Below the pieces are notes generated by a model. That model searched no databases. It worked only from the letters and a program-made list of their open reading frames with translations, and was not told the DNA's origin. Made by a program: the position numbers and the translations under genes. From positions 63,798,001 through 63,862,000 of the forward strand of contig CM034546.1 of the NCBI GenBank assembly GCA_020055645.1: a stretch of DNA of 64,000 nt, written 5' to 3'. Below, in pieces: positions 5,091 through 57,930 of this stretch. Origin of the DNA: Tomocerus qinae. Taxonomy: Eukaryota; Arthropoda; Collembola; Entomobryomorpha; Tomoceridae. The stretch's first letter is position 1, and each line of letters opens with the position of its first letter.

Positions 5091-6690
5091 AGCTTATGTT
5101 GGTCATTATGTAAATCCTTATGTAGGACCATAGCATGGTCTTTATGTTGGTCTTTATTTAAATAATTATGTAGGACCATATCATGGCCTTTATGTAAATC
5201 CTTAAGTAGACTACAGCATAGTCTTTATGTAAATCCTTATGTAGGTCCACAGCATGGTCCTTATCTAGGTCCATAGCAATGTCCTTATGTAGGCCCATAG
5301 CATGGTCCTTATCTAGGTCCATAGCAATGTCCTTGTGTAGGCCCATATAGCATGGTTTTTATGTAAGTCCATAGCATGGTCCTTATGTATGTCCATAGCA
5401 TGGTCCTTATATAGGTCCATAGCATGGTCCTTATATAGGTCCATAGCATGGTCCTTATATAGGTCCATAGCATGGTCCTTATATAGGTCCATAGCATGGT
5501 CCATATGTAGGTCCATAGCATGGTCCTTATGTAGGTCCATAACATCGTATTTCTGTAGGTCCATAGCATGGTACTTATGTAGGTCCATAACATGGTATTT
5601 ATGTAGGTCCATAGCATGGTCCATATGTAGGTCCATAACATGGTATATATGTAGGTCCATAACATGGTATATATGTAGGTCCATAACATGGTATATATGT
5701 AGGTCCATAACATGGTATATATGTAAGTCCATAGCATGGTCCTTATGTAGGTCTATAGCAAGGTCCTTATGTAGGTACATAGCATGGTACTTATGTAGGT
5801 ACATAGCATGGTCCTTATGTAGGTACATAGCATGGTACTTATGTAGGTCTTTATGTATGTTCCTATGTAGGTTCCTATGTAGGTCTTTATGTAGGTTTTT
5901 ATGTAGGTCTTTATGTAGGTTCCTATGTAGGTCTTTATGTAGGTCTTTATGTATGTTCCTATGTAGATTCCTATGTAGGTCTTTATGTAGGTTCCTATGT
6001 AGGTCTTTATGTAGGTTCCTATGTAGGTCTTTATGTAGGTTCCTATGTAGGTCTTTATGTAGATTCCTATGTAGGTCTTTATGTAGGTTCCTATGTAGGT
6101 CTTTATGTAGGTTCCTATGTAGGTCTTTATGTAGATTCCTGTGTAGGTCTTTATGTAGGTTCCTATGTAGGTCTTTATGTAGGTTCCTATGTAGGTCTTT
6201 ATGTAGGTTCCTATGTAGGTCTTTATGTAGGTTCCTATGTAGGTCTTTATGTAGGTTCCTATGTAGGTCTTTATGTAGGTTCCTATGTAGGTCTTTATGT
6301 AGGTTCCTATGTAGGTCTTTATGTAGGTTCCTATGTAGGTCTTTATGTAGGTTCCTATGTAGGTCTTTATGTAGGTCTTTATGTAGGTTCCTATGTAGGT
6401 CTTTATGTAGGTTCCTATGTAGGTCTTTATGTAGGTTTCTATGTAGGTCTTTATGTAGGTTCCTATGTAGGTCTTTATGTAGGTTCCTATGTAGGTCTTT
6501 ATGTAGGTTCCTATGTAGGTCTTTATGTAGGTTCCTATGTAGGTCTTTATGTAGGTTCCTATGTAGGTCTTTATGTAGGTTCCTATGTAGGTTCCTATGT
6601 AGGTGTTTATGTAGGTCCATAGCATAGTCCTTATGTAGGTCTTTATGTAGGTTCCTATGTAGGTCTTTATATAGGTCCTTAGGGTAGCCA
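5091..6690. repeat. 1.6-kb minisatellite, 24-bp units made of 12-bp half-repeats
   Basis: The array consists of 24-bp units, each two diverged 12-mers of the form AGGTYYNTATGT. From about 5091 to 5850 the dominant unit is AGGTCCATAGCATGGTCCTT plus ATGT. From about 5840 it switches to AGGTTCCTATGT joined to AGGTCTTTATGT, which is highly homogeneous. Because the period is a multiple of three and lacks stops, long open frames appear on both strands. They are by-products of the period, not evidence of protein. Confidence 0.93.
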
Positions 6691-22412: not shown

Positions 22413-25400
22413 TTAACAACAGCATGAACGTTTGGATCTGTGAGGGGTCTCTAAAAGCGTATGGGCCTGTGGAGTTATTCCTTTTGCACACATGTAGGGC
22501 TGACCCTGGTCAATAAATTGTTGTTTTTCTATTGCTCTTCCCTTTGAATTTTCAAACTGATAAAATTCAGATTTGGAATCAACGCGTTTAGCAAAAGATT
22601 GCTTAAAATAAGCATCACTTTTCCAGTAGAAGCTTCCAATAGACACTGTCTTCTTTGGTTTCTGCAAATATTTGAGTACTGCCAATAAATCTTGTTTGTT
22701 CTGGCATTGACATTCAATTTTTAGCAAAGTTGTACATTTTTTGAATAGGGCCAAACAAGTAGTACTTGTTTCCTCGACATTTAAATATTTTAAGTTGGTA
22801 AGACTAAATGTTTTAAGTGTCGATTTTATTTTTGTTTTTTGACCAAATGTAATTTTTTCTACACTCTTCGGTATTGCAATAAGATCTATAAGAACAGGTT
22901 GATCCACAGATCCATGTATTTCAATTTCTTTGATGGTCGTTAGAATTTGTGATGTGAAAGGGAATTTGTAGAAACTGAATTTGTTTACATTCCATTTAAC
23001 TTTTTCTAAATCGATTATATTTGGTTCCCACAAGGTAACTGAGTCCATGTGGATATCGTCAGACATATCAACACAAATATCTTTATCGTTAACAAAGAGT
23101 TTGTAGATATTTTTGAAATCGACAAACTCTTTTAAATGTACATCTGATGCAATGTCATTATATCTTTTGAATTTCACTTCTTCTACGTGAAGTTCTTTTG
23201 GGCAGACTCGATGGCCATGTCTCAGAATAACAGAACATTGGCTTAAGTAGAGGTATTCAACGGAAGGGATTTCTTCAATTTGTACGGTAAATTGGGATGA
23301 CGGGGTAGAACTAGAACTTCTAATTTCATTTACAGCCGTTCGCTGATTGTTGTCAAATATTAACTCTTTTTTGTTGCCCATCCCGCTAAGTTTAAGTTTC
23401 CGGATGTCAGTAAAATTGAAAAATTCATTTAGATACAATTCTACATCAGCTTCTGCATTTTTGTCAATTCGAATAAAATTAACGTTTTGCAAGCCAAGTT
23501 CCCTGGGGGTGATTTTACTAAATTTTTTATCCACCAGAACTGTACAACCGTTTAAGTAAAGATATCGAAGACTGGCCATATCTTCTAATGAGACAATAAT
23601 GTCCGTATAGCAGTTCAATTGCAAGTAATGCATCTTTGTACTAACAATTTCTGAAGACAATCTAGATATTTGTGAAATACCAGCCCTTTGGTCAAGAAAC
23701 CAAACCCGATTTAAAACAAATCGTTCCAAATCGCTTGGAAATTCAGTTTTTTGAATACAACAATCACAAAGTTCCATCGTTTTTGTGTCGCCGTTTAATT
23801 GTAAACTGACAATTCCGTTTATGTAAGTAAAGCAATATCCCTGTACTTCTAATACTTTGAGGACGTTAACCAAATACGTCAAATTGATGATGTCTAAGCG
23901 TTGATTTTCTTTCCTAAATTTAACTAGCTCATAAATACCTTCGAATGCTTCTATTGCTAAATCGTATTTTAATGCTATAAGCTGCAGAAAAAATATTTGA
24001 GTTTTAACCATCAATTTGTCAACAGAGCGACTTAGGGCCAAAAGGATATCAAATTCTACATTTTCGGGTATTTGAATAGGTTTTTCAACTTGTGGGTAAA
24101 GATTTTGTAATAAATCTAATGCCTCTTCTAGTTTACCACATTTGCTAAGGCATATTGCATAGTTGACAGTTGCTGTTGAAAATTGGAGCTCGCTGCTCAA
24201 ATACTTTGCTGGTGTAAGACTTTCATGAAACTTTTTGTCATTAAATAATTTATGAAGTTGATTTGTGTAGATCGAAATTATTTTATGCCATACGGTAGAC
24301 TTTGTGAGCTTTTCGTTGAGATCCATAAGATCAAAAGCATTTTCTTCATTGAATTTGAGCTCAGACTCGTCTTCCTTCTTTAGCTCCAAGAGGAGATTAT
24401 TTAATATTTCCAATGCTTCTTTCGTTTCGCCAAATTTCTCCAGACAAACGGCATAGTTGTACAACGATGCAGAAGATTGACTCTCTTGTGAAATGAATTT
24501 TGCCAAATCGACCGCTTTAACGAAGTTTCCAGAGACAATTAATTTTTCCAATTGCATCTGATCAATCAACTTGGCTCCAATACTTCGAAATTCTCTCTTC
24601 AGTTTTTCATCTGCATATGTATAAGGCTGCATTTTGTATTCCAAGTAGCCCTCGCATTGCAAAATCTTCTTCAATACTTTTCTTTCGTTATCTTTTCCAT
24701 TGATTCTGATCGTTTGCTGTAAAAGTCGATGCATGCTTAATAAATCAACATCAACACTTTGCCTTTTGGAACGAACTTTGTTCCAGAAACTGTCATTGTG
24801 GGTCAACTTTGTATCTGTTCCAGTTTTCGTTACTAGCGAGTATTTCTCTAATAATTCAACAGCTTCCATCAAATCGGGTTTTTTGACATTCCCAACACGT
24901 CGTAGAAATTCCGCATCCACATCATCTGAACGAACGTAGCCAAAAACTGTGAGTAAATCGAATGCCATTTTTCCTTTCGGTTCCTTTTGAATTAAATCTA
25001 AAGAAATCTGCATGTTTTTATTTATTGTTTTCTCATAGTCATCAAATTTCTCGTTAAAAATGTTGGCTGAAGAGTCGACTTTGCTTATCATGTCCTTGAT
25101 ATCTAGTTTTCCATTATTAAGGGTGGCTACTGTTAGTTGGAGTGCTAAAGGCAAATTCCCCAGCATATCACAAAGTGTTTTTAATTCACTGTCTTTGAAT
25201 TGTATGTCAGGATTCAATGCATTCTTAACAAATTCGTAGCTTTCGTTAATTCCAAATACATCCATTTGAAAATCGGTGATTCCATGTCCAGTTTTGTTTC
25301 CCCAATCAGTACATCTTGAAGTAATGATACAGTGAAAATTTAAATCATTTTGAGGGAGTACATCCTTAATTCCAAGTTCTCCTTGATATCTTTCTGCATT

Positions 25401-28400
25401 GTCAAATACCCACAAGCATTTAAATTTCCACATTTTCTCAAAACATTTTCTCGCTAAATTTTTCAAATCCAGTTCGTGGCGAAAATTAATTTTTAAATCC
25501 ATGGCTAAATCTTTGAATGATTTCAGTAAACTTTCTTCTCCACTGTCAATCCAAAAAATATGTTGGTACACTCTAAAAAAAATTCAGCACAAGCAGTTGA
25601 GTAAACTGCTTTTTGATCAACCTTGTCTAAAATTTTGACAACTGTTGTTTAAATCTAACTCAATGAGTTGGAATGTGCAACTGTTGTATAATATTTTAGC
25701 AATGGATGAGTAAATTGCTGTCATCGTCAACGATTAAATAAAATTTACTCAACCATTGCTGATTATTAAATCATTGTTGTATAAATTTTTAGCAATGGTT
25801 AATTAAACTGTTGGTATCGTCAACGGTTAGATATAATTTACTCAACCATTGCTAATTGATTAGTCAATGATCGGACTAATAATACTCAAAATGTTGAGCA
25901 TTTCCCAGAAAGGAATAAGTACAGGCTATTCCTTCCATTATGACAACAAGTAAATGTAGGTATGTGGTAATGTGCCTCGATAGAACAGAGCAGGAGCAAG
26001 GCTTCGGTACCCGCATCGGGTTATACTTTTTGCTCATGTTTACTCTGGCATTGAGTAAAAACTTAAATCAAGAGTTGAGGAATACGTTTATACACCATGT
26101 TGAGTAAACTGAACTCAATATGTCAGTCGGCGCATTTTTAACTCAGTTGTTGAGTTCAGTTTACTCAAATTTGACTGAAAATTTCTTAGAGTGTAGTCCT
26201 CTTGGTAATGATTTGCAAACCATTTGGCTGTACTGGTCTTTCCAATCCCACCTAAACCCGAAGCTTTAGCCTTTTGAGTAATTACTACCATTTTATTGTT
26301 TGCTCCCAGCAATAATTCCATTATGTGCTCAATAATTGTTTTTCCATCTAATTTTCGTTCGTAAAAAGCGTTTACTAGAGCTTTTCTCTCTGGCCACCAT
26401 TTCGGGATTAGTTTCTCTTCCTTTTGTACCTCTTCCTTGACTTGACGATCAAGCTTATCACCAATTAGGTTCATATGCTCACAAATATGTCGGAGTAGTT
26501 CATTATTTTCCTTTTGTAAATCGGACGAGTTTTTCCGATCAGTATCTTTAGGCTTAACAATAATTTGAATAAATTCTTGAATAGCATTTGGGATTTGTCT
26601 CCAATCGTTTTGCAATTGTAATGCACTCAGATGTTGTGACTCGACCTTCTTGTATCCTTTTAAAAGTTCGTTTTGGTTTTCAAACTCAAAGACGTATCTG
26701 AATTCGTTAAAGTTTTTCATTTCATCCACATCTTGCTTGATGTAGAATTTGCTAATTCCATCTTTAACTATGACAATTGCTTCTTCAAAAAGTTCTTGCG
26801 TACTTAATTTCTTCTCTTTTGATTCTATATCCAATCCTCGTTTTTTAACTAGGGGATGAAATGTTGAACGTCCCTTTAAAAATGCATCAAAGATCATTTC
26901 AGGTGAAAGCTGTTTACCTTCACTGGCATGTTCTGATAAATAGTTGAAAATTCGACGAGTTGTGTCATGGAAAAAGCTTAATTTATTGTCATCGTTGTTA
27001 GTGATGGTATTCAATAAATCTTTGTAAGCTATGCAAATGTAGGACATTCCTGTGCTGACAATGACTTCGAATTCCTTTTCGGCTTTGCTGTTTAACGTAT
27101 TTGTCCAACTTAAAAGATTTTTTCGTTTCCTTTCATCAAGATTTCCCAATACTACATTTCCCACCTTTTCCAAAACACTTCCAACTCCCACTCTTGTTAG
27201 TCCTCTAGTTATTACTCCTGCCAATGGCGCCATTGTTATTGCACCTGTCGCAGCACCTGCAGTTATACCTGCAGCCGCTCCAATTACTATTGTATTTTCT
27301 AGAACTTTTGATGCAAACGTTGTCTTTTGATATTTCCGATCTTCTCTTTGTATTGGAAGCTCCTTAGAAATTAACGAGTTGAAATTTTTTAAGAATACCA
27401 TTTTTCCTGAGCAAATCCAATCTTCTAAAAGTTGTTTCTCGTCTTCGTCAAAGACGAAAGCATTTTCACAATTACTGGCACTGTTAAACATTAGTTTTCC
27501 TTTAGACTATGTTTAGGAAAACGGACATAAAGAAGTTACATTAAATTAATTAGTAAAGTCACATACTTTTCATTGGTTCCAAATGCTGCGGGTGGGGACA
27601 GACCTGTTATCTTATGTGGGTCGATAGCTTCCGCTGTTGCTGCTGCCGCTGGAATGTTGGCGGACGAGTTTCCACTTTCTACATTTTCACACCTATTCAT
27701 TTAATAATATTATTTCAATTGATATCCATGACAATCATGATTTAAAATGACAATTCACTTTTTATAATCTTATTACTATAATATTAATAGTAAAATTTGG
27801 ACACGTTGAGGTTTAGTTTGAAGTTTGAAGAATGGAAAACCTTCTCTACGGAAATATATTGTAGTAATAACAAGATCTGGCAAAATACCTACCTACCATT
27901 CCATTGCAACAACATGGCCTGGTTGGGTCAGAGTCCATGCAATCATAAGTGCCATGATGTTTTGTTATTTACCTGTTCGATTTTACATCTTCAATGGACA
28001 AAGGAATTTTTTCACGAGTTAATATCTCACTCCAAAACTTAATTTGGTCTTTGAACTCTTCTCCAGTTACTGAACACCCTGTTGTGGTTTTCTTTAGTTT
28101 TATTTGTTGACGCATTAATTCAATAAATTGTTTCGAGTGCAGTGAGAATAAGGAGTCCAAATTATTCTCCTTAGAATACATAGCAAATGAGTTGCCTGGG
28201 TGAGGAAGCAAATAAACAGGTGCGCCTTCAAAGAATTGAGCCACTTTTTCTTGTTTGAATACATCGTTTATCTTGAATGGTTTTGAGCTATTTGTTTCTG
28301 ATTTGTTCATTTGTGTTGAGCAACCCTTGGGATCATAGTAGCCAAAATCATAGCCCGAGAAACTCCAGTCCCGAATCAACAACATCGAATTTTGATACAA

Positions 28401-30744
28401 ATTCTCGTTCTCGAATCTAATATACAAGTTGTAATTAATTACTTACAAGTGAAACAAAAGTAATCATGTTACTATTATTAAATACAAAAATATACATTAA
28501 CATAGCAAACCTATTATCGTCAGGCTTCAGTTGATATTGCAAGTAATCTTGAGATGCACGAAAGGATTGTAAAGCCTGTTGATCGATGCCTCTAATGCTG
28601 TTGTAGATGAAAACGGAGCTGAGAAGCCGACTCCAAGCAAAAACAGCGACGTTGTCTCTCCAAGTCGTTCCATCATCTTCAACTTGCAAAGTTTCATTAC
28701 AGTCAATGAGCAATATTGCAATCTTCTCTCCTTCGTGTTGAATGAATATCGGCTCAGACCAGATATTTATACCGCCTATACTCTGTGTTTGATTATTGCT
28801 TTGAAATGGTTTTTTTGACTTCAAAGATTTTTCAAACCAGCCTTTCTCTTCAGCCTTTTGTATGTAATAAAGGAATTTGTCTAAAAGAAAAGATTTTCCA
28901 GATTGTTTTGGACCATTGATTGAATAAATTGCAAAACGACAGGAGCCAATTTTCGTTAGTATTTCGAATAAAACATCAGTATCCAAATTAAATGATTTCT
29001 CCTTTGGACCCAGAATTTGGACAACTTTTCCATTCATGGTACCCTGTAAGAAAAATAATTATAGATTTTTTAGGCGATCACATAATATTATACAATCCTT
29101 GTTAGGTTGCTAATTTGAAAATTATAATTTCGAGGTTATTATTTCACAGCATTAAAATAATTACATAGGTTGGTTGGGTAGACATATTATAACATTGCAT
29201 GGATTTAATAATAATAATAATATAATATATCATTCATTATTACCCAACCAAATAATAACAATAATATTATATTACTTTTAATTAATCCTTTTTGACATAA
29301 CAGTTTTCATGTATGGTCCACAGTAATCTTAAAGACAGGCATATAGATTCAATTTAAATAATTTAACTATTTAGTAATGTGTATTAAATGCAGATAATAT
29401 TCCGAGTAGGTAGATGAAACATTATTGTAATGTTCATTGTAACATATGGTAAAGCAATGACATGGGTTGACCAGGTCTATAAATAACACCAGACTTAATC
29501 TTCAATTCAATTCACATTTATTTAAGTGCCAAAAAGTTCAAACCATACAAGATGATATTCCTATAAATCATATAAAATGTTATCATCCCACTTAGATATA
29601 AAGTACATTAAAGTTGTCGTAATTAATGTAATTATACAGACGGCATTTCATATTGTTCAGTAATACTAAGTAGTACAAGAGATTACTTGCAGTCGGATCA
29701 AATGTCGAGGAAATCTGAGCAACTGAAAGATGGCTCTTGTCATCTGTATGTAAATAATAATGTATAAAGATAAGATACTGAGCACAGCAGTTTTACAGAG
29801 ACAGAACTTTTGTCGAAGCAGTATTTCGTAATCTGGCTTTTCATTCCGAATGAAAAGCATGAATGAATCGTTCATTCATAACGTAAGAACGTGCACTTCT
29901 CAGGCAGAGTTTTTCTAAAATGTTGGTTCTATAACCTACTTTGTTCTTTTATACACAACAGGGATTTCCGTGATATTTAACTCATTTTCATTAATTGTAA
30001 AGCCAAATTGTCACCTTCCAACCCATTTAAAATATAACAGAATATAAAATAAGTATGGTGACAAAGATGAGACGAATTATATTATCATGACTCTATTAGC
30101 CAAGGGCCAGCGCAGAGAAGTAAGAAACAATAAAAAGTTAATTAGTATGATTAGAGGATTCACTCCCGAAAAAATAAAGTGCAAAATAAATTGTTAATGG
30201 TGATTATGAGAAATCTACCAAATTTATATTTGTAAAGACAAAAAAATTTTCTGCTTCAACGTTTTCGGTAAACATTTTCCTAGACTGCTGAAAACGTTGC
30301 CAATATATTAATTCTTATCCGAAAAAAAACATTCCGCAACTAACATTACTATATTACTGTAATAAAAAGACTAAATAAACAAATAGAAATCTACAGTATT
30401 AGTGCTATGAAAAACATTTTGAAGGAATGAGAAATGTTTTAACACATCAATTTATAAGCTAAGAATTTCAAAGTTTATATTATAATTTTGTATGACTAGG
30501 TAATAGGAAGATAGTCTCACCTGTTGATAACTGGGAGGTATTTAAATATAAGACGTTACAAGTAAATGGGAAGAACAGTTAGGTGAGTTTGTTAGTATGA
30601 GAACATAGAACTCACATTTCACGTTAGCAATGCACGTACACAAGTGGCATACTGAATGAAACTTACCAAGTTCAATTGCAGATTGTTTGACTCACTTTTC
30701 ACTTTGCGACAAACTCGGCAGTCCAGTGTTGCAAATTCTGCCAT
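22413..30744 (-). CDS. GB1/RHD3-type GTPase fused to NB-ARC, TPR-like and leucine-rich domains, with a MITE in its last exon
   Basis: Inferred exons: 30744-30667 (MAEFATLDCRVCRKVKSESN), 29043-28511, 28416-27973, 27692-27567 and 27480-22413. Every junction has GT..AG borders and keeps phase. If the MITE and one TA are disregarded, the coding length is 1874 codons. Residues ~70-77 are GPKQSGKS, with LIDCNET and an RDW motif in MLLIRDWSFSGYDFGYYD, then VYLLPHPG. These are atlastin/GBP (GB1/RHD3) GTPase motifs. Residues ~457-490 are Gly/Ala-rich and hydrophobic (VIGAAAGITAGAATGAITMA). NB-ARC follows: P-loop GLGGIGKTS at ~802, CLWVFDNAE, CIITSRCTDW and GNLPLALQLT. Then come TPR-like helices (~1175-1330) and irregular leucine-rich repeats to ~1820. 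NB-ARC proteins are STAND switches in immunity or apoptosis; a GTPase at the N-terminus is unusual. As written, the MITE stops the frame at 26115. The gene is therefore disrupted, spliced around, or polymorphic. The N-terminal exons could also form a separate gene. Confidence 0.7.
25569..26193. mobile_element. 625-bp TA-flanked MITE inserted in the NB-ARC exon
   Basis: Left end CACTCTAAAAAAAATTCAG and right end CTGAAAATTTCTTAGAGTG form an imperfect terminal inverted repeat, flanked by TA at 25567-25568 and 26194-26195 (Tc1/mariner-type target duplication). Removing the element plus one TA restores the host frame exactly, from ..NHYQEDY to QHIFWIDSGEE.. . The interior carries GAGTAAAC/ACTCAA words and two tandem copies (about 25681-25769 and 25775-25853) of a segment that begins TGTTGTATAA and has AGCAATGG pairing with CCATTGCT. 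No transposase is present. Confidence 0.88.
29038..30666 (-). other. First intron of the GTPase/NB-ARC gene
   Basis: Donor GTAAGT at 30661-30666 (minus strand) and acceptor TTTCTTACAG just before 29043 bound a ~1.6-kb intron. The interior is AT-rich with ATAATA-type simple sequence near 29190-29270. If the upstream exon is not used, translation could start at the ATG at 29037. Confidence 0.5.
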
Positions 30745-43890: not shown

Positions 43891-46800
43891 ATGTTTGGAC
43901 AGAAAACAAATATTGTAGAAGATACTGTTTCGATAGACGAAATATTTATTGATAACTTTAAGAAATTAAATAATTCATTATCTAGTGTGAATAATCATCG
44001 TGGAACAAACAATTTAAAAGAAGTTTTATCAAGTAAGACTTCGAGAATTAATATTTTAATCCTTAAGTAATATTTTTGGTTAACTATAATTATTATACAT
44101 TTCACTCTCAAATATTTAGGTATAAATTACACTTTCTTTACCTACCACAGTAATATTTTGATTTTGAATCTTTGTATAGGAGAAGATTTCACAATGTCTT
44201 CAAAAAAGGTTTTGAGACAAAATGAGAAGTCTATTCAGAAAATCGTATCTCAAAATTTTAACAGCGATTTGGACTTGTCACTCAAAGATACCTACTTTGT
44301 GAATCTGAAAATTGTCAATACAAGTAAGGGAAGTGCTGAAAATGAAATAGAAAATGTTGAACATAAAGAAAGACAAAAAATTCAGGAAATTCAAAAATTC
44401 CGTGCGAGCAGAGCCAATCAGGAATGCAGTGAAAATTATTTGGCAACCACAATAGCCCAGTTGAGCAGAAGAGACCAGGTTCCAGGAAATAATGATTCGT
44501 GCGGAAGTTTCACAGAGGTAAATCCAATACTGAATAAAACTATTAACAGAGTACTTATTTACGGAAGTCCAGGTACTGGAAAAACGACTTTGTGCAAGAA
44601 AATAGTTCATGATTTTTACAACAAAGACTTGTGGAATCATTTGGACGAAGTTATATGGATTCCCTTGAGACAATTAAAAGATTCCAGATTCGACCAAGAT
44701 GAGATGAACGAGGAGAAATTGTTGAAAATCTTTTTGAACGAAGAAAATCTGAATCTTAATCTGGATAATGTTCTGTTCATTCTGGACGGTTGGGATGAAA
44801 TTCAAGATTTACTCTCCGACCCAAAGAAAGTTAAATTGGTTGAAAGTATTAACAAAATCAAGGCACGAAAGAATTTAATTTTGACGTCTCGTCCATATGT
44901 TCAGTTGAACTTTGCAGATTATCAAAGAGTTTTAGAAATCACGGGATTCAGCGATAAAAATGTTAGGGATTACATCAAAACGATTTTACACCAAAACAAT
45001 CGTTTATCCGATCAAGAAAAAATCTTGGAGTACATCGGAAACAATTTGCTATCGGATTTGGTGACAATTCCTATCATCTTAGAAATTTTTCTATTCGCCT
45101 GGGAAGAAATTTCAACCATGGACAAAAATGAAATCACAACAACTAAACTATACCAAACTTTCATTCTAAAGTTATCAAAGAATTTCTTGATCAAGACGGG
45201 AAAAGACGTAAGCAGAGATATTACTCTAATTGACTTAATAAATGGTCCTCTTTTGAAGGAATTCAAAATGTTGAGGGAAATGGCAATTAAATGGTTGGAA
45301 AATGGATCTTTGCAATTTGTTTATGCAGACTTTGAAAACTCAAATGAAAAATTACAAGAAAAACTCCCCTTTCTAAATTCTCCGTCTATTGGAGATTGGA
45401 AAACCGAGAGGAGTGAATTTATTCATCTCACATTTTTGGAATTCTTTGCCGCTTTTGAGCTAATCAACAGAGAAGAGGAAGATTTTCGTCGTTTTGTTGC
45501 AGAAAACAAATTCAATCCAAAATATTTTGTTGTGTTTACTTTCGTTGCCGGACTTATTGATGCAAACCTTCATAATTTGAAAGAATTTAGCAAATTACCT
45601 TATCGGTATTCCAAGGAAGAAAAATTGGATCTTTATTTTGACTATTTACAAAGTGATCCTGTAGATTTGTCTGGAAAGTATATTTATATGCTGCTCATGG
45701 ATTGTATGCACGAATGTCAACTGCCAAAATCAAGAGAAACTTCAATCTATCAGGAAATCACAGCATTCGCTTGCAAGCAAAGTTATTATACCGCAATTGA
45801 TGGTAGGAAAGTTCTTGAATGTCTCCGGCGATTTCCATTGGGTTTGATGGAAGAATATTTGAAATATGGAGATGCAGATCTACACCAACTGTATAATTAT
45901 AGTTATACATATCCTCAATTCACTGATAGCCAGGTTGAAAAAATTTTCAAAACTAACATGTCAGAACTTACTAAGCTGGAGGTTTTATGCAAGCAATGCT
46001 CATTCAGTTCTTACAGTTCTGAAGTGATTAAAAAGTTGCTAAGCTTTAAATCTCTACGCAGTTATTGTCAACTCACATATTCAAACTTGCCGTTTCCCGT
46101 ATTGGAAAAAGTTGTTAAGCTAATGATTAACAAAGACCTTTTCGAAACTGAAACTGATAAGAAGGAATACATTAAATATAAAGGAATTTCAAGTGCAGAT
46201 GCAATTAAGCTCTGCGGTCAGCTGGTAAATATTGAAAATGGTGAATCAATTCGAGATATAATCGTTAAATTGATCCTTTCCAAAGTAGACGAGGAAATAT
46301 TATTCTTCTTGGAGAATGTGTACGAATTTGCTGAAGAAATGCCCGGGGTTTTGCTTGGAATTTTAAATAACGTAGAATTCAGTCATGACTTGGTCCTTTA
46401 CAAACGAGTGATGAAATTGATTAGACTATTCGATGTGAAATCACAAGCTTTGGTTGAAAAACTAATTCAAATTTTGGATACGAACGAAAAACTAAAATAC
46501 CAAGCTTTAAAAACCATCGCTTACATATTCAACAAAGAGGAAATGCCCCCTAAAGTTGCTGTTTGTGTATTGAACAATTTTGAGTCGATTATGGATTCGG
46601 AAAAGGAACGAGTGGCCATACAAAAGCGGTTAATGAAAAATTACTTGGAGTCCACGGATCGAAAATCTATCATGAATGGGTTTACTTATAACTGGAGATT
46701 CAATGAACGTACTTACTCGATGAAAGAATTTATAAATATTATTACATACCGTTGCAATTCAAGTGTACTTCAGCCGTTGATTGACCTTTTCCTTGGAACT

Positions 46801-48930
46801 CCAGTAACGGAGCTTGCTTTGGAACTTTTACCAAAGGAAGACCAATTTGTATTCAAAATATTCCCTTTTATTGTAGAAACCAAAACTCAAGATGGAAATT
46901 TACACATCACGAAAGCAATTTCCAACATTATCAATTCGAAAGAAAATTGTTTGAGAGAAATGATGTATACAATTGATTCGGATTTGATCTGCGAGACAAT
47001 TAAGGAAATGTTGAAAGATATAGCTGGAAAGGAACGAAAAGTCGATTGGAAATGGACTGTGAAAAGAATCTTCTACACTTTAACAGAAGTTCAGAGGTAT
47101 AGTGAAAGATGCTCCACCCTACAAAAATGTGCTCCTAAGTACGGAGATGAAAAATGCGTTTACCATGCACATCTGATGAATTCAGAAGTACTACAAGAAC
47201 TATTTGAAAGTGAAGGAATCAATCTAAACAGATCAATAGAATCCGCAGTAGATTCTGAAGAGTGTCTATTGGAAACGATAATGTATCTTTGCTATGAACA
47301 GAATGATAATGATTTATTATGGGCACAATTGCTGAACTGCGGCGTTGAAGATTCTGAATACCAAGAAAAAGCAACCAAACACATGCTAAGACTTTTTTGC
47401 CAAGACATTGAAGTTGAATTGAGGGCCGAACTTTTACATTATTTATCTAAACGAGTTCATCGGATGACGAAAGAACAACTCACTCTGGTGTTAAGGTACG
47501 AAGGTAGTGAAAAAGACTTCGAATTAGGAGAAAATTCTAACGAAGACAGAAGCTATTTATCTAGCATTACAAGCCAAGCAGAAAATGCTCTACTTTCAAA
47601 TCACAAGTTCATTAAGGATTGTGAATACTTTTCAGAAGACGAACAATCTTCATTGAGACAATTAAATCCTTCGTACGACAGATTTTGTAGGGAAGAATCT
47701 GATTTAGAAATTCTTCAGCAGATAGAAGAATTAAGCACCCACATACATGAGGTTCTGAATTCTCCAACCACAAAGGAAATCTTGAATGCCATTTCACAGT
47801 GCTTGAAAGATTCTGATTATTCCAAATTCGATTCAAAAATCAGAAATATTTGTCAAGAAATGTATGGATATGGAATTGAAAGGTATTCATCGATTGCTAA
47901 TACTTTCTTCCCTGACGCTTATACTAAGCAATTTATTATTGCAAGATATATCTTAGATCAGACCAGAAATACCGAATTTGAAAAATTATATAAAAAATGT
48001 AGAAAGTTGGCCAGGAAGACTTTTTCATTCCAGATCATTCATAAAATTTATGAAAAGTTGGATGATGAAATTCTGGGGCCATATTTCTTGACTGTTTTGG
48101 AAGAAAACTACGACCCAAACATAATATCGATGATCAAGTGCATAAATGATTCTTCAACTGAGAGGCAAAAATGTTATATGTCTTACGCATTGGTGCAAAG
48201 TGTCAATTGTTTAAATGACAACATTCCAGTATATATTTTCAACAATCATCTGTACATGGGATTGAGCGTTTCTGACAAACCATCTCTTCCTAATTTGAAT
48301 CAATGTCAACGGGAAATCATTTTCAATGCAAAGTCAATAGCAAATTCTAATGGATTTAATATCCAACTGTGTGGAATTGCTCCAAATGTTGAAAGTTTTA
48401 AGATCTGCACAGAAAAATGCACAGTGATGGATTTAAGCGAAAAAGAGGAACATCTCAAGAATAACAAACATTTGGACTTAAGCAATCAAAATGTTAAAGA
48501 CAAAAAAGAGATCGAAAAGATTTTGAAATTTGCTAAAAAGTACCCTGTTGAAACCCTGATACTTTCCAATAATCAAATCAATGGAGAAATGTTTGAGATT
48601 CTCATTCGGAATGCCAATGAAACTCGTCTTAAGTATTTAATTCTTGACAGTAATCTTATTGAGTTGGACAATTTTAACTTTGGAAATATTTTTGGAGATG
48701 AAGATTCGTATGTCAATCAAAACCATTCTTTACTACTACTAGATATTTCCAATAATCCCACTTCCATTAGCTGGCTGAAAAAATTTGAGGAGTTTCAGGA
48801 TGCTGGAATATTTAACCGGAAAGATGCAGAAGGAAAAATCCAGGTTCATGGCTACAATTTGAACAACACTAATATCATTTTGTACCGCAGTACTTTAACT
48901 CGGGGCGATAGTGGTTGTCAAGTTATCTAA
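43891..48930 (+). CDS. NACHT ATPase with C-terminal leucine-rich repeats (NLR-like)
   Basis: Exon 1 (43891-44032, MFGQKTNIVEDTVSIDEIFI..) ends at a GTAAGA donor and joins in phase to exon 2 at 44180 (acceptor TTTGTATAG), giving 1630 residues. If exon 1 is not used, the next ATG is 44194. NACHT motifs: Walker A LIYGSPGTGKTTL at about 176, Walker B LFILDGWDEI at about 247, sensor NLILTSRP. A winged-helix/HD region follows, with FIHLTFLEFFAAFEL. The ~1000-residue middle is helical and unassigned. The last ~150 residues are LRR-like: VETLILSNNQINGEMFEILI, LKYLILDSNLIE and LLLLDISNNPTS. No death-fold domain was recognised at the N-terminus. NLRs are cytosolic STAND immune sensors that oligomerise on ligand binding; that role here is by homology only. 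No break is visible. A poly(A) signal follows at 48943, and a 146-bp copy of its coding sequence lies at 58682. Confidence 0.88.
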
Positions 48931-48948: not shown

Positions 48949-51239
48949 TTAAAATTATATAGGAATTTTGTATTTAGGTTTTGACAGATTTTATGTTAAT
49001 AGTAATAATAGCTGTACTGGGGAATGCTTTAAAAAATAAAAAATCACGTAGCTAATATAATTTACAGTAATGAAAGCCTGTTATAAACAAATTATTGTTA
49101 CAAAAGTCACTAAGTACCAAATAAAATCAAAAACAATGAAAACCAGAAAAACCATTCATAGTTAAGCATTAAAATGGTTAAATCATTTATCAGCAATTAG
49201 CAACAATCCGTGTCTATTCGTAAGCTTATATAGTAGACAAAAATTCAGATATAGTTTGAATGTGTGCATTAATTTGTAGATTTGTTATTGATTTATTCAT
49301 GAAACATTGTCTGACACGTTTGACTAACATTATAATGTAACATACAATTAATGAAGATTTCTATGATGGGACAAGCCATTTCCTCATTACGAGTCTACAG
49401 TACCATTTTATAGACAGAACGAAAAGGTAAAGTTTAATATAATATTGGACGAAATTGAGAGTTTTGTGCTGGCCCCGCTGAACATTGGTGTATGTGCCTA
49501 AAATGCCTTTAAGTACAATTACATTCTAGCAGTAAGTTTATAAAAGCTGTCCTACGAATTCAAGAAAGTAGATGTATACTTAATAAAGGGATATGGCATG
49601 GTAATGTTATTTAAACTTAAACGGTCGAAATAAAGAAAATAATTATTTAGGTAGAAAATTTTGTTATCGGTTTCATCTTCTATCAGCGCTTATGCTGTAT
49701 GAAAACATGTTCACATTTTATTCATCCCTATTTTCCACTTATCTCATGACACGATTGATTTTTAGCACCTCAAAAAAGAAAGATATTGATGTTTGCAAGA
49801 TTTTCAAGCAATCATACTATGAATAAAAAGTAATGAAAAATTGCTTAAAACCTCGATCGATGCTTTACATAAGATTAGCCTTCCTCAGTTACTTGAAAGT
49901 CATGAAAACTATACCTTTAGCTTCGCACATAAATAAAAGAATATTTCTTTTATCGATTAATAGGTGGAATATTAACTAATATTTTTATCTAGCTATTATA
50001 TTCTTCTTGTTTAAATGCTAGTATTACATTGTGTTAATACGCAATACAAATGTTTTTCACGCTTTACTATGGACATTTGAGTAAATAAAAAAGTGGATAC
50101 GGGTGGCATACTATTTTTTAGTTTCTATAATTTGTATTGAAATCCAGTTTGTTTTAAAACACACTGGACTGTATCGGAATGATGACTTTAATTTAGAATT
50201 TAATTGTTACATAATATTATGATCAACGAAACTATTTTCTGATATAATTTAAAGTGCAGAATTTTTAAAAAGATTAGTGCAAATGCAAACAATACACATT
50301 ATAAAATTTGAAAATGCTAACAAACAAACAACTAAACCGATTGTTCATATTTTCTCCATAATAATTTGATTTTCAAGTCAAATTTCATGCCAATGCTTTC
50401 TGATACTTTAAACCCTTAATATCTACCATTGTCTAAAAATGTTTGCATCAAATTTATGAATTTGCTATTAAAGTCTTTGTGCTATCTATATGGCGTACAG
50501 AAGGACGGTTAGAAACAAACGGGGACATCCTATGTAGTAGATTGCTTAAAGTTTTACCACGTAAGGCAACATAGCAACATTCTAATTTAACTTTACTTAT
50601 AAAACAACTTTTAAACACTTACACTAAACAAGTACAAGCAAGTATGTTAAATTGTAATTGCGAATCTGCCTGTTTAGTAAAAACTTTCATTTAATTTTCT
50701 AATAAAAAATTGAGGACTTTTTCAGTTGAAAAAATTACCTCTAGGAACAGCAATAATCTTCTCTCACTATATATTGAATATTGTGATTAAATTATGATTC
50801 AATTTTACTAGAAAAAAAGTTTCAAATAAAATTGGCGTAATTTTCACAAATATCGGCGTTATAGTCAACAATAGAGCAAAAAAATCATAGAAGTTAGGCA
50901 AGAGAAATCACTAAAATGGGGAAAAAATTTATTTTTCAAGCAAAAGCTTTACAAATTTTATAATCAAAGAGTGTAAATTGAAATCTTAAGGTCATTTGTC
51001 ATCGTTTTACTCGAGTTTAAGAATTTTAAATGAAGTTGAAGTAATTTTCATAAATAGTGCATATCGGCGCCATAGTCAACAATAAAGCATAGAAATTAGG
51101 AAAGAGAAATCTTTAAAGTTGGAAAATCTTAAAAAAGAGGCATTAGTTGTAACTCAAGAGTGTAAATTGAATTGGAAAGGTCAATTGTTGTTCAGAAAAC
51201 AAAATTAGTGGCAAGAGGATACCAAAAACTTATTTCACA
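48949..51239. other. Intergenic spacer, part of a duplicated block
   Basis: Non-coding. About 49690-51239 is similar to 58830-59460 and to 63240-64000. Shared words include TATCGATTAATAGGTGGAAT and AAGTAATGAAAAATTGCTT. It is the 5' flank of the receptor gene at 51240 and must carry its promoter, but I could not identify a core element. Confidence 0.6.
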
Positions 51240-53705
51240 ATGGTTATTAGAAGACGAAATGCAGTGATTTTTCTGCTATCTCTCTCTATTTTTTGTACAA
51301 ATTTCGTTTTGACTGGAAAATTAGAAAACTTGTTTTCGTTGGAGAAAGATTGTTACATAAACCTAATATATTACGGAATGTACTCCACACAAACTACGGA
51401 AATATTGGAGGAGCTACTCCTAATAAAAACTCCGTATTCTCTGACAAATGTGGATTCCATGAAGAAGATTCTAGCTCAGAGATATCCAAATATGACACAA
51501 CAGGAAAGGGAATCACAAATGAATCAAAAAGTAAGTAAATCTCTTACTACTATTAGACTGTGCTTCCGGGGAACCGACAAACCAGGTCCGATGTATTTGA
51601 GTAACCGATTCAGATGTATTGTGCATGTTTCTGTGGATTTGAATTCAAGCAAGTCGATTGACCTGGCGTTGACAAAATATGTAACTCATTACGTAGGACT
51701 TCAGTTCACGTTTAATAAATACAATGAGAGTAAAAAACCTTATTTGTCATTAGAGCGTACCTGCTACCACACTTTCCAGCATTACAATTTCCAAGATTAC
51801 ACAAGTGTTTATTTTCTCATTCGAAATGAAATTTTTAGAGATATGGCGAACCAAAGAAAATTTTTAAATGGCATTAAAATGGAGTTTTCGGGGTTGGAAG
51901 GACACTATTTTGTGCAATTATTGGGAAAAGAAGACAGCAGAATATTTTTCATTTGCGGAAAATGCCAACAAAGAATGATGAAAGAAAAGTCCAAAATATC
52001 AAATGAATTTATGGACAGTTTAGTTTTCTTACACAATGGTACTTCAGAGGGCAACAATCTTGACCGGAAACTTTTGAGGAAAATTCGAGCAGACGTGACG
52101 TTGAAGAGTAATTTTTTAAAAGAAAAAATGTTTACAAGTGTTTATCGTTACCCAGCTCCGAGGCACTTTTATTGTGGGCCTACTTTAAAGAAAGAATCGT
52201 TTTTACGAGCTTTCTTAGAAAACGAGGTCGATGTGGCAATTATTTTGTCTTCGATTGCCTTCTACAGTTTTCCTAATATAACAATTAGTACACAATATTT
52301 GTGTGAAGAGACAATGTGGGGTAGACAGATACCGTCATTGGAAATACAAATAAAATTAGAATATTCAATGGAACAAAAACTTTTTGAAGCTACAGGCAAC
52401 TATATTGTAACTGGATCAGACAGCTACAGTTATATATCGTGCGTGGTTCTGGAGGATGAGAGTCTGTCGTTCTACGGCTACATCCGTCCATTTGATCTCT
52501 CTGCTTGGATTGGAATTCTGTTGACAATATTACTTGTCACAATATTCTTCCAACTGACTTTATATCTGAAGCACAACGAAATCTACCAGTTCATCTTCAC
52601 TTGTTATGCTTATGCACTCTGCAACAATTGCGGATTCCCGAAAAAGATGGAGAAATATTTCTGGTTCAAAATTGTTCTAGGTCTATATCTACTGATGTTC
52701 ATCGTTCTCACCTACGGCTATGCAGGCATCGTCATCACTGATTTAACTGAACCCAGACCTGTAAGACGAATCGAGTCTTTTGAAGAAATTGCAAAATTGG
52801 ACCACATTTTAGTTGTCAGTTCACTTATTGGACTGTATCCATATCCTTACGAGCCATGGTTAATACCAGTAGGTGCCCAAAATTGGATGATGTTTCATTA
52901 CAACTGTTATTTACATTTGAAGAAAATAAACAGCAGTGGAATAAATACTAGATATACTGATAAATGTAATCATGTTATTAGCACTTCTACAACATTTCAA
53001 GATGTATCAATCGAAACAGTGAAGTCAGCATTGGATTACTCTACTCGACCTGGTGGTGATGAAAATTTTATTTTGGCTTGGGATTCAAAATATTACCCTA
53101 ACTTTGGTCAAAAATTGAACGCAATTAACAAAAAGGTCCGTTACCCACCGATTTCCCCAAAATTATCTTTTCAACATTGGATCTCCCAATGCAACAGAGA
53201 AGTGTTTGTGGATAGACAGAGCCAAATTCATCGATTTTTAAATGATTTTCATTGGCATGCTGCAGGAATCAAGCCTAAAAGAAAATTGTACATTGGAGTT
53301 CCAGATAATAATACTTTAACATTTGGAATGTCAGTCAAGAGCAAATTTATCTTTTTTCGGGAATACTTTAGAGGAAATCTTTTAATTCTGTCCGAATCTG
53401 GGATTTACTCGCAATGGATGGATGTCTTTAACCATTTTAATTTCACACAATGTCGACATTGTCTCGATAGAGAACAACCACGCCCGTTAACCTTTTATAA
53501 TTCAAACATTTTTACCATTTTTGCTATTTATTTGGGATGCTTAATTTTTGACCTTTTGGCATTTGTTTGGGAAACAAAACATGTCTTGTTTCATTTACTT
53601 ATTGATTTAATTTCCAAGTTAAAGAGAGCTTTTTGGAATTTGCGATCAAAATTCACGAATTTCAACAGTTTAAAGATTTTTGTTGCTTCCCGTAAACGTA
53701 AGTAA
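51240..53705 (+). CDS. Single-exon divergent ionotropic receptor
   Basis: An uninterrupted 821-codon frame begins MVIRRRNAVIFLLSLSIFCT, a signal peptide. A long extracellular domain follows (KDCYINLIYYGMYSTQTTEI..). The channel part starts after VVLEDESLSFYGYIRPFDLS (~402). M1 is AWIGILLTILLVTIFFQLTL at ~420-442, then the pore region CNNCGFPKKMEKYFW. M3 (FKIVLGLYLLMFIVLTYGYA, ~474-499) runs into GIVITDLTEPRPV. S2 contains RQSQIHRFLNDFHW and FREYFRGNLLILSESGIYSQ. M4 is NIFTIFAIYLGCLIFDLLAF at ~755-779. This is the divergent arthropod IR layout, intronless, unlike the multi-exon IRs at 14-20 kb. It is probably a chemosensory cation channel in sensory dendrites; the ligand is unknown. It is the only uninterrupted copy of its subfamily in the window. 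Confidence 0.85.
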   Translation: MVIRRRNAVIFLLSLSIFCTNFVLTGKLENLFSLEKDCYINLIYYGMYSTQTTEILEELLLIKTPYSLTNVDSMKKILAQRYPNMTQQERESQMNQKVSKSLTTIRLCFRGTDKPGPMYLSNRFRCIVHVSVDLNSSKSIDLALTKYVTHYVGLQFTFNKYNESKKPYLSLERTCYHTFQHYNFQDYTSVYFLIRNEIFRDMANQRKFLNGIKMEFSGLEGHYFVQLLGKEDSRIFFICGKCQQRMMKEKSKISNEFMDSLVFLHNGTSEGNNLDRKLLRKIRADVTLKSNFLKEKMFTSVYRYPAPRHFYCGPTLKKESFLRAFLENEVDVAIILSSIAFYSFPNITISTQYLCEETMWGRQIPSLEIQIKLEYSMEQKLFEATGNYIVTGSDSYSYISCVVLEDESLSFYGYIRPFDLSAWIGILLTILLVTIFFQLTLYLKHNEIYQFIFTCYAYALCNNCGFPKKMEKYFWFKIVLGLYLLMFIVLTYGYAGIVITDLTEPRPVRRIESFEEIAKLDHILVVSSLIGLYPYPYEPWLIPVGAQNWMMFHYNCYLHLKKINSSGINTRYTDKCNHVISTSTTFQDVSIETVKSALDYSTRPGGDENFILAWDSKYYPNFGQKLNAINKKVRYPPISPKLSFQHWISQCNREVFVDRQSQIHRFLNDFHWHAAGIKPKRKLYIGVPDNNTLTFGMSVKSKFIFFREYFRGNLLILSESGIYSQWMDVFNHFNFTQCRHCLDREQPRPLTFYNSNIFTIFAIYLGCLIFDLLAFVWETKHVLFHLLIDLISKLKRAFWNLRSKFTNFNSLKIFVASRKRK

Positions 53706-55111: not shown

Positions 55112-55459
55112 TTAAGGCTCTCATGGCTAATATTCTTTTGTGTAGTATTGCACTGTGAATTGTTAAGAAGGTAAGGTTGGCATAAATATGTCAGATTTGC
55201 CCTTATTTTAAATTGCTGTCCAATCTCTTCACGTCATTCAGTTGTTGTTGAATAAATAATGGCAACTGAAATAGTTTTCAAGCCTACTCATTCATGGAAT
55301 AAGGACAAGTGATTGTTTCTTCAGGGGAAAATAACAGTGGAGGAACTATCTTCTCTAACCTACCCTAAAAAAACTTTGAGCCCGACCGTAATGATTTAAT
55401 TCATTTAATTTCACAATATTCCATTATTCTTTTCTACTGTTCGAAGTATTTTTGAAAGT

Positions 55460-57930
55460 ATGAAATTCTATATTCTGATAGCAAATCTCTTATTTATCTT
55501 TGATTTTTCTCGAGGATGGAATTTAAAGGACGTGATTAACCTCGAGAAAGACTGCTATATTAATCTTCTGTTACCCCACAAATATCATTCTAGTCCTGCT
55601 CATGATTTGTTACAAAGGCAGCTGCTTGAAATTATTGTTCCATTTGCAATTACAAAGCCAAAATTCAACACTGACGAAATTGAATGCAATCTAACAGAAT
55701 TTCTCCATAGAAAAAATTTGGCTTTGGAGACCTTTATTAAGCGCTGTACCAATTCCATAAAAGACAAGCAAATGAGAATTGCATCGCCAAGTCCAGTGTC
55801 TCGTTTTGTGTGTGTGGCCAACATCGTCGTTAATTTCAATCCCAGCCAATTAACTGATTTTATGTTTGTTGAATACGTCAGTGGAAGTTTATCCACAGAA
55901 ACTGTTAACACTAATATATTCAAACATAAAAGCCAGTACAATTTTGCTCAGCATTCTTCGGTTTACATTCTGGTTGATAAGAACTTGCAGTTAAACTTTA
56001 CTAAGTCAAAACCCCTTTTTGACTTGCCAGAAAACGGAAATCAAATTTTGAATATCGAAGTTTTGTTTTTGAGAAAGACGTGGTTTGTATTATCGCTTTC
56101 CAACGAAAGTGACAAATCAGTGTATTTCCTGTGTCCAAAAGTCAAGACTGATTTAAGATTGCAGAAATTTAAACACTTTAATTTAGAATTTAATTCTGGT
56201 AAACATTTCCGTGGAATAGCTATGAAAATCTTCAAAAGAAAAGCAATTTAGTAAAGGAAGTTGCGCTACGGATACGCGAAGAAAATTCTAGGATGCTCAA
56301 TAATGAAAAAAGATTTTATTGTGGACATCCACTACGTAATTCTTATTTCACAAATGCGTTTGATGACGGAGAAAATAGAATTTCCATTGCAATTGCTTCG
56401 ACGATTTTGGAAAAACTACCAAACTCTACTATAACATTCTCCGGTAATGACTGTCCCAAGAGATTGCGAGCTCCTAGTACTATTGACTTTTATTACCAAA
56501 AGGCAGAAGTTTATGACCGCAAGTCTGGACCCTATCGAATCCATCTACCTACTAAAGAGGATGACTTCAGCTTTATTTCTTTTGTCGTTTTGGAAGATGA
56601 AAGTCTCTCTTTCTATGGATATCTTCTTCCCTATCAATTCCACTCCTGGTTGGCCATCATTGTTACCACCAGTTTCGTAACTGGTTTTGTTCACGGAATG
56701 ATTTACTGCAAAAATGACCAACCCGTTCCATTTCTTTTGATCTGCTGTGCATATTTATTGGAAGTTAGTTACTCACTCTCAGGCAAAGTCGGAAAAACAC
56801 TTTGGATAAGATTAGTGATAGGACCTTTGTTGCTCATGTTTATCGTATTGACTAATGGGTACAAGGGAATTGTCATCAGGGATTTGGTTGAGCCACGTCC
56901 AGTGAAAATAATCGAAACTTTGGAAGATATCGCGAATATGCCCGAAATTGCATTACTTACTTTATTTAAAGGTACTACAGAGTTCAATCCTTTTCATGTG
57001 TCTAAAGAGACTCAAAAAAAGGTGATACGTGATTACTACTGTCCGAAGGATCCCGGAGGTCGCTATTTACATAATAAGTCACACGACGACATAAAATGCC
57101 GAAATTTTTACTACGCCAACCTCACTTTTGAAAATCAAAACCAAAGTGAAGTTCAAGCAGCATTTCAAGACTTAAATACAAATAAAGGCCCTAACTTTAA
57201 ACTAGTTTTTGATTTGATGAATTGGATTGAACTACAATCCTCCCAACAAAAAGAAGCAGGACAAGTTGCAAAGGCTAATATTCTAAACAACTTGTCCAAA
57301 GCCTTTGCATTTCCTCCTGGGTTTCCTTATATAAGTTCTCAACAATGGATTTCTCAATGCAACAACTCCGCGATCATTCTACCAACGTCTCGTCTCCATC
57401 GACTGCTGAATGATTCTTACTGGAATCCTGAGAGTGGGGGATTTGCACCAAAAAGAGAATTATATCATCGGAAAGATCAAAATTCATTGCTATCGCTATC
57501 TCTAAATATTGGTTTCGACAGTAACAGCATTCCACTTCTTACACCTTTCCTTCGAGAGAAATTGTACTTTCTTAGCCAGTCGGGAATTTTTAATGCATGG
57601 TTGGATTACTTCAAGGGTCACAATTTTACGAAATGCAAAACATGTTGGCTTCGAAATCCTATTCGACCTCTGTCATTCGTTAATTCAAATATTGGCTCGA
57701 TATTTCACATCATTTTGGTAGGGTCTTTCTTATATTTTGCAGTTTTTCTTTGGGAATGTCGCCTAGTCTTAAAATGTCTACTGGCTGTATATTTAAATGT
57801 TAGTAAGGCATGGGTGAAAGACAATGTATCAAGAATAATATGTTATATGTTAGGTAATTCGTTTCAACTGAACTGTTCTAGATTTCGCCAAATCCGAAAA
57901 CCTGTAATTCCACTAGAAAGTCAAATTTAA
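55460..57930 (+). pseudogene. Single-exon ionotropic receptor with one frameshift
   Basis: Starts MKFYILIANLLFIFDFSRGW (signal peptide), NLEKDCYINLLLPH, paralogous to the receptor at 51240. The first frame ends at TAG 56249-56251. The homology continues without loss in another frame from about 56215 (NSYENLQKKSNLVKEVALRI, then RFYCGHPLRNSYF), so a single indel lies around 56205-56225. The rest is complete: VVLEDESLSFYGYLLPYQFH, M1, the pore, M3 (GPLLLMFIVLTNGYKGIVIR), DLVEPRPVK, S2 with SRLHRLLNDSYW, and M4 (HIILVGSFLYFAVFLWE), ending at 57930. The overall span equals ~823 codons, like the intact paralog. It is diverged from the other two copies, so it is an older duplicate. The lesion may be a real pseudogenising change or an assembly error. 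Confidence 0.82.

Follow-up and report, generated by a model that had tools for sequence, protein, structure and literature searches.

A degenerate GBP domain upstream of an NB-ARC module in a springtail gene family of putative NLR-type receptors

Introduction

Can a GBP-type GTPase and an NB-ARC switch be parts of one animal polypeptide? The question is raised by a locus on the minus strand of a 64,000-nucleotide stretch of the genome of the springtail Tomocerus qinae (assembly GCA_020055645.1, contig CM034546.1, positions 63,798,001 to 63,862,000). This whole stretch is called the window here, and coordinates are window positions. A first-pass annotation of the locus had linked a GB1/RHD3-type GTPase to an NB-ARC module, TPR-like helices and leucine-rich repeats (LRRs), and had read the product as carrying two nucleotide switches. 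Our analysis suggests that the locus probably encodes a single polypeptide of ~1850 amino acids (aa) belonging to a GBP-NB-ARC family; this product would be a receptor of the NLR type whose GBP is degenerate. The domains would follow one another as a degenerate GBP/atlastin-type LG domain, a short fast-evolving linker, a Gly/Ala-rich helical domain (hereafter mid domain), an NB-ARC ATPase, TPR and irregular repeats. The window copy is referred to as W, and the other family loci in the same genome as L027, L028 and L030.

Results

Gene structure and domain order of the window copy

The minus-strand frame was recovered with the motifs, GT..AG borders and compatible phases reported for it. Its corrected coding segments lie at 29037-28511, 28416-27973, 27692-27567, 27480-26194 and 25566-22413. 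The last two are pieces of a single exon (D) divided by a mobile element, and all five together give a product of 1845 aa. Pfam places a GBP domain at residues 14-280 of this joined frame (1.6e-25), NB-ARC at 772-983 (2.4e-7) and TPR_19 at 1140-1192 (2.6e-6), so the profile search suggested for the joined protein returned both the GBP/atlastin-type (GB1/RHD3) and the NB-ARC domain.

Exon A (28511..29037, minus strand, like all exons here) contains the start Met at 29037 and the 5' half of the LG domain, with the P-loop GPKQSGKS, switch I SIGGINIW and a degenerate G3 motif, LIDCNE, at 28710-28693. It is conserved in L027 and L028, and its stop-to-stop frame matches the GBP profile by itself (3.9e-20). 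Exon B (27973..28416) completes the LG domain with its 3' half (LLIRDW, LLPHPG), continues into a helix-like stretch and ends at the donor GTAAAT. Linker exon C (27567..27692; phase 2-2) measures 126 nt in W and 123 nt in L028; in L027 the linker is split over two exons (150 and 123 nt), both open and phase 2-2. The first part of exon D (26194..27480) encodes the mid domain, including a Gly/Ala-rich hydrophobic stretch at 27198-27293, and the NB-ARC P-loop GLGGIGKTS (26232-26258). Its second part (22413..25566) supplies the rest of the NB-ARC domain (CLWVFDNAE, GNLPLAL, SMHRLLQ), TPR-like helices, an irregular LRR-like C-terminal region and a terminal SKRSCCC before the stop. The CCC that follows basic residues at the C-terminus of W and L028 may be a lipidation site; L027 ends in QQFIAY.

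Both ends of the gene as originally drawn required revision. The former exon 1 (30667..30744, minus strand) was rejected as coding sequence: its counterpart in L027 (68% identical) has no ATG there and contains an in-frame TAA (read by eye), and the 5' homology of L028 to the window stops at 29657. At most, this stretch could be a promoter region or an untranslated 5' exon, and the ATG at 29037 (MNGKVVQ...) is the supported translation start. Reading the last exon straight from 27480 to 22413 was rejected as well, because the frame then meets 14 internal stops. All of these fall between 26117 and 25586 and come from a 625-bp element that had gone unmentioned.

NB-ARC and C-terminal repeats

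The NB-ARC part contains what we take to be Walker A (GLGGIGKTS), Walker B (CLWVFDNAE), GxP (GNLPLAL) and xHR (SMHRLLQ) motifs, and G-L-G-G-I-G-K-T, D493, P577-L578 and H717 are invariant over six aligned proteins. By sequence, solved structures were matched weakly (Roq1, 0.078). In an AlphaFold2 (AF2) model, the NB-ARC region (model residues 371-680) reached a predicted local distance difference test (pLDDT) score of 63-87 by block, most of the rest being poor (model mean 46.7). A Foldseek search with the NB-ARC model returned Apaf-1 (1z6t; 1.3e-11), CED-4 (8jo0), NRC2 (8rfh) and the STAND-TPR protein 6mfv, in a list of 88 matches at E up to 0.001 that also includes the maltose-system entry 8bob.

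In the C-terminal region, TPRs are supported and LRRs are not. LRR_4 (0.0047) and LRR_8 (0.13) both fell below the Pfam cut-offs in the joined W frame. AF2 modelled the C-terminal 729 aa poorly (mean pLDDT 46.7), and a fold search with this model gave no match at E 0.001, the list being headed by TPR-type proteins. Of the proposed chain, the GTPase, NB-ARC and TPR parts are confirmed and the LRRs stay putative. As architecture only, the joined frames show the tripartite order of an NLR: an N-terminal domain, a central NB-ARC and C-terminal repeats.

The most familiar NB-ARC proteins come from plants, fungi and bacteria. The T. qinae genome holds at least 126 NB-ARC matches (the best 126 of 253 candidates were scored). 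Many of them lie in open frames 900-1400 aa long, which would amount to a plant-like expansion in an arthropod genome. Of 14 control genomes, 6 also gave matches in this search, and those of 3 passed the cut-off; this was anticipated, since prokaryotes have the family too. In a word-based search of 5.8 billion proteins, the closest named NB-ARC sequences were Wolbachia NB-ARC-TPR/ANK proteins and proteins of a caddisfly and the springtail Orchesella dallaii, the last two being the sole named animal matches, with 24-30% identity for the strongest. A separate observation concerns one O. dallaii protein (P0012), whose N-terminus matches CARD at 15.1 bits, below the cut-off of 23.9; it is perhaps a CARD-NB-ARC protein resembling Apaf-1.

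Paralogs and purifying selection

We found four loci of the family in this genome: L028 and L027 are uninterrupted, W is interrupted by the element, and L030 is decayed. L028 (~50 kb from W) and L027 (C1:65.40 Mb) have the same domain order and 0 stops, with Pfam NB-ARC matches of 1.9e-7 and 3.5e-10, respectively. Their amino-acid identity to W is 98.4% and 75.9%, and that of L030 is 57-74% in pieces. Because the genome contains two uninterrupted copies and a decayed one, the proposed fusion does not depend on the broken window copy.

Both the GBP and the NB-ARC ends are under purifying selection. Between W and L027, the ratio of nonsynonymous to synonymous divergence (dN/dS; NG86) was 0.23 for GBP, 0.42 for the linker, 0.14 for the mid domain, 0.09 for NB-ARC, 0.17 for TPR and 0.20 for the C-terminal region. 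Between W and L028, it was 0.045 overall by NG86 and 0.063 by YN00. In the NB-ARC domain of this pair, none of the 410 residues has changed at a dS of 0.22, a comparison given by NG86 as no amino-acid change exists; elsewhere the two methods point in the same direction. Polarised changes amounted to 63 synonymous and 4 nonsynonymous on the W branch and to 41 and 5 on the L028 branch, with 46 and 21 not assignable to either.

W and L028 are mosaic relative to each other, with 0 differences in residues 401-600, 1.2% divergence in intron 4 and 12.4% in intron 3. Residues 401-600 and intron 4 thus resemble a gene-conversion tract amid parts with many synonymous differences. Because of this mosaic, the divergence of the flanks (2.8-2.9%) was rejected as a neutral clock.

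A mobile element interrupts the NB-ARC domain of the window copy

The interruption lies between Walker A and Walker B. The element (25569..26193) is 625 bp long, has terminal inverted repeats (CACTCTAA...) and is flanked by a TA target duplication; its inverted-repeat ends span 21 nt counting the TA and are 86% complementary. L028 represents the empty site, since window positions 25568 and 26193 align to its positions 5096 and 5094, and removal of the element restores EDYQHIFWID in W, as in L028. The genome has at least 48 matches to the element (the best 40 of 65 candidates were scored in the genome search), 29 of them near full length (618-635 bp, 92-100% identity), W included. Besides W, there are at least 40 strong places: 28 near full length at 92-99% and 12 more at 80-93% or partial. 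The many near-full-length, highly similar copies mark the family as young and mobile.

Two outcomes are conceivable for W: either it was recently disabled, or the element is spliced out. The chances are about even that W is a fresh pseudogene whose NB-ARC was destroyed by the element, with L028 carrying the function ~50 kb away. The insertion puts 14 in-frame stops into W when read straight, its family is young, and the neighbouring copy is uninterrupted. On the other hand, the polarised changes show undiminished coding constraint along the W branch, so the insertion would be recent or the element spliced out. At least 18 GT..AG pairs inside the element leave the reading frame open; splicing from donor 26175 to acceptor 25573, one of these pairs, would add 6 residues. 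The insertion may also be polymorphic. A dead W would concern this copy alone and does not conflict with the fusion itself.

One gene or two neighbouring genes

We then weighed whether the GBP and NB-ARC parts form one gene. GBP matches more than 50% identical to the fused type occur at four loci (W, L028, L027 and L030), at each of them upstream of an NB-ARC-type part and in the same order, whereas all other GBP matches in the genome are at most 42% identical to it. The mid domain was matched at eight loci (11 matches; all 13 candidates were scored), four of which are the GBP-bearing loci. The other four have no GBP match nearby in genome-wide GBP searches, and tblastn of ~5 kb upstream of L029 and ~4 kb upstream of L031, two of these four, found no GBP. 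Mid domain and NB-ARC thus also occur together at loci without a GBP match, and these four relatives suggest that the GBP part was probably grafted onto a pre-existing NB-ARC gene.

The sequence between the two parts also argues for continuity. The linker exons are open and phase-matched (2-2 throughout) in all three copies, with a G+C content above that of introns 3 and 4: 0.45-0.50 versus 0.26-0.30 in W and L028, and 0.34-0.37 versus 0.19-0.24 in L027. Moreover, the NB-ARC exon of L027 has no in-frame ATG back to the preceding stop. It is therefore quite likely, judging from these sequence features, that GBP and NB-ARC belong to one gene, and a single transcript would then run across both.

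Several observations weigh against a single NLR-type gene. Just 5' of the NB-ARC exon, within intron 4, W and L028 contain an in-frame ATG (27486..27491 with the next codon, minus strand; ATG at 27491), and the GBP-less L029 and L031 have an in-frame Met at the corresponding place, directly before their mid domain. The divergence of linker exon C between W and L028 (13.0%) is close to that of intron 3, which suggests that this exon is under little constraint, and the C-terminus of L027 is unlike those of W and L028. The mid domain was modelled poorly (AF2 block pLDDT 23-47), and Pfam found nothing above its cut-off in it. A membrane role for this domain is suggested by composition, with a peak mean hydropathy over 19 residues of 1.64 in W, 1.66 in L027 and 1.02 in L029. 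Finally, none of the 8 + 27 protein-database matches carries PF02263 (the best 7985 candidates, by most shared words, were scored for the 27), so conservation is shown in this genome only. With the GBP part as query, 0 of 2392 long-protein candidates matched at E 0.01, although the word-based method may miss distant ones. The search for the same architecture elsewhere, which had been proposed as a check, thus yielded three more loci in the same genome and no GBP-NB-ARC protein among the database matches.

The ATG in W and L028 and the Met in the GBP-less relatives make two adjacent genes conceivable: a short degenerate GBP gene ending after exon B and an NB-ARC gene starting in intron 4, duplicated as a block. 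Unspliced exon B does run directly into an in-frame TAA, and the intron-like divergence of linker exon C would fit. A separate start at 27491 had been named beforehand as a possible sign of two genes; its ATG exists in W and L028 and is missing from L027. Nevertheless, we consider two genes unlikely, given the co-occurrence of both parts at 4 of 4 loci, the open and phase-matched linkers and the L027 exon without an ATG. A stand-alone GBP ending after its LG domain would presumably also be unusual.

The fused GBP has lost two GTPase signature residues

With one gene as the preferred reading, we examined the state of its N-terminal domain. By sequence, the solved structure nearest to exons A and B is atlastin-1 (4.2e-23). 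The G1 P-loop and the G4 RD are kept, as GPKQSGKS and LLIRDW in W and L028 and as GPRRSGKS and LLLRDW in L027. In contrast, the switch-I G2 threonine is lost, with SIGG in W and L028 and SKGG in L027 where atlastin-1 has TTG, and the G3 DxxG reads DCNE in all three fused copies. Both residues have established roles in GBPs and atlastins. Comparison GBPs of the same genome have T-x-G and DTQG in 7 of 7 readable rows (L003, L004, L005, L007, L008, L013 and L015; L001, L002 and L006 were excluded). The genes of L001 and L002 are also represented by L009 and L010, which read DTQG, and L006 reads DTEG, while the stand-alone GBPs read DCQG (L032-L035) or DTQG (L036, L037). The five GTPase motifs of GBPs are listed in PMC9005921.

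Soon after the LG domain, the fused frame departs from the GBP alignment, whereas L037 continues as a coiled-coil-like body; the helical body is therefore missing from the fused GBP. L037 is the closest stand-alone GBP (41%), and its interruption coincides with that between exons A and B (query 172/177; located by alignment). In a tree, it is the sister of the fused GBPs (support 84/88, not a starred branch), which sit on a long stem branch of 1.52 changes per column.

The loss of the G2 threonine and the DxxG glycine suggests that the GBP part is probably not a second active switch but a hydrolysis-poor, possibly nucleotide-binding module. This goes against the earlier view, in which the protein had two nucleotide switches and a dynamin-like GTPase as its effector end. 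That the GBP is nonetheless an active dynamin-like GTPase and the true effector seems distinctly improbable: the retained P-loop GKS and G4 RD, the purifying selection on this part (dN/dS 0.23) and the P-loop arginine kept in L027 speak for it, and the changes at G2 and G3 in 3 of 3 copies, the missing helical body and the long stem branch speak against it. An assembly or annotation artefact (collapsed haplotypes or a chimeric join), to which the similarity of W and L028 at ~50 kb distance might point, is highly implausible, as a single 140-Mb contig carries the same order at four places that differ widely in divergence (98%, 76% and 57-74% in pieces) and a clean target duplication flanks the inserted element.

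Other GBP frames in the genome and neighbouring genes in the window

The profile search of the genome (334 Mb, 115 contigs) gave 72 GBP matches by exon, URGCP-type GTPases included (83 of 83 candidates scored), and none in 14 control genomes. Some of these GBPs share a single-exon frame with HSP70: L010:2597-8089 (-), L012:2179-6648, L016:3358-7602 (-) and L024:2685-6737 (-). Both domains were found in 4 of 4 such frames scanned (GBP partial in L016 and L024), with GBP at 1e-52 and HSP70 at 9.4e-181 within the 1831 aa of L010; L009, L011 and L013 are alike by alignment. No GBP-HSP70 fusion was described among the literature matches listed. Another single-exon frame of 548 aa (L006:757-2400, -) combines GBP (2e-41) with apolipoprotein L (3.4e-9; 37.0 bits, cut-off 25.9), which is notable because human GBP1 enables the bactericidal activity of APOL3 (PMC12091997). 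L017, L019, L021 and L023 are large URGCP/VLIG-type GTPase frames, each in a single exon; all 4 of the 4 scanned matched URGCP_GTPase, at 6.6e-38 to 1.2e-65. The stand-alone GBP frame L036:444-1889 (+) ends in CVIA, a possible CaaX box like that carried by vertebrate GBP1/2/5 (PMC12091997).

Within the window, a second STAND gene lies at 44071-48930 (+), with NACHT at 3.5e-13 in a 1619-aa frame. Its end looks LRR-like by eye (Pfam lists no LRR there), and its last residues, CQVI, may be a prenylation box. Three tandem ionotropic-receptor-like genes at 51171-53705, 55409-57930 and 59386-61914 (+) are mutually alike by eye; in the first, the one scanned, Lig_chan scored 0.0056, below the cut-off. 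EcKL matches of 2.8e-10 and 1.8e-11 add further arthropod-type neighbours. A long minisatellite of 24/48-bp units occupies 5234-6641. It creates open frames on either strand, the longest of 494 aa, which are probably not genes.

Discussion

By analogy, the GBP-NB-ARC protein may act as an NLR/Apaf-1-type switch. The TPRs and irregular C-terminal repeats would be the sensor and hold NB-ARC in its ADP state until a ligand permits exchange for ATP and ring assembly. Such a ring would cluster the N-termini, the putative effector part, and the clustered Gly-rich helices could act on a membrane as the candidate effector. These helices would be the older effector, as they are present in the GBP-less relative L029, and the hydrolysis-poor GBP would be a later graft serving as a targeting, dimerisation or bait module. 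A more daring and rather doubtful extension is an animal NLR with an integrated decoy, in which a selected, hydrolysis-dead GBP was grafted before NB-ARC so that microbes attacking or binding host GBPs trip the switch; the loss of the G2 and G3 residues fits a decoy.

Vertebrate GBPs coat pathogens and feed inflammasomes via separate proteins (PMC12091997). Here, one gene appears to unite the GBP and NLR sides, and the arthropod genome that carries it has a large NB-ARC family. Should the transcript prove real, the gene would serve as a natural Rosetta stone for the coupling of GBPs to NLRs and make the decoy idea testable in an animal. In the same genome, the frames that join GBP to HSP70 or to ApoL hint at physical partnerships hard-wired by evolution; together with them, a true decoy would make GBP domains a general plug-in of arthropod cell-autonomous immunity.

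The first-pass annotation had known of no described protein with this order, and our literature search agrees: no GBP-NB-ARC fusion was found, in searches that fell short of most subscription journals and of bioRxiv preprints. In the literature covered, 'guanylate-binding' and 'NB-ARC' were mentioned together only in a genome-wide association study of Aegilops, and 'NB-ARC' and 'Collembola' nowhere.

Among known systems, Apaf-1, CED-4, plant NRC-type NLRs and STAND-TPR proteins have the same NB-ARC fold, with P-loop, Walker B, GxP and xHR in the same order. Their usual N-terminal domain is CARD, CC or TIR, whereas the present protein has an N-terminal GBP, and TPR plus irregular repeats at its C-terminus. 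Atlastins and the stand-alone GBPs L032-L037 share the LG domain with it, and L037 also the interruption between exons A and B; unlike the fused GBPs, they retain the switch-I threonine and a DxxG motif (DTQG or DCQG), and go on into a helical or coiled-coil body. The Wolbachia NB-ARC-TPR/ANK, caddisfly and springtail NB-ARC proteins (P0001, P0009, P0010, P0003 and P0012) resemble the mid domain weakly, by eye and over part of it only, and none carries PF02263, unlike the present family. Arthropods and the Wolbachia phage WO are described as having exchanged NACHT and TPR genes, in a paper that names NB-ARC once (PMC5062602).

Plant NLRs with integrated decoys (PMC4246468) likewise bear an extra domain whose own activity is possibly lost; the present protein differs in being animal and in having an N-terminal GBP, for which a bait function is conjectural. 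The nearest described GBP-inflammasome fusion that we met is zebrafish Gbp4, a GBP with a C-terminal CARD (PMC4932187, PMC9005921), which likewise unites a GBP LG domain and an inflammasome-type module in one protein. As far as these sources describe it, Gbp4 keeps the helical GBP body and the GTPase and adds a CARD, whereas the T. qinae protein would join a short LG domain, devoid of the G2 and G3 residues, to a complete NB-ARC.

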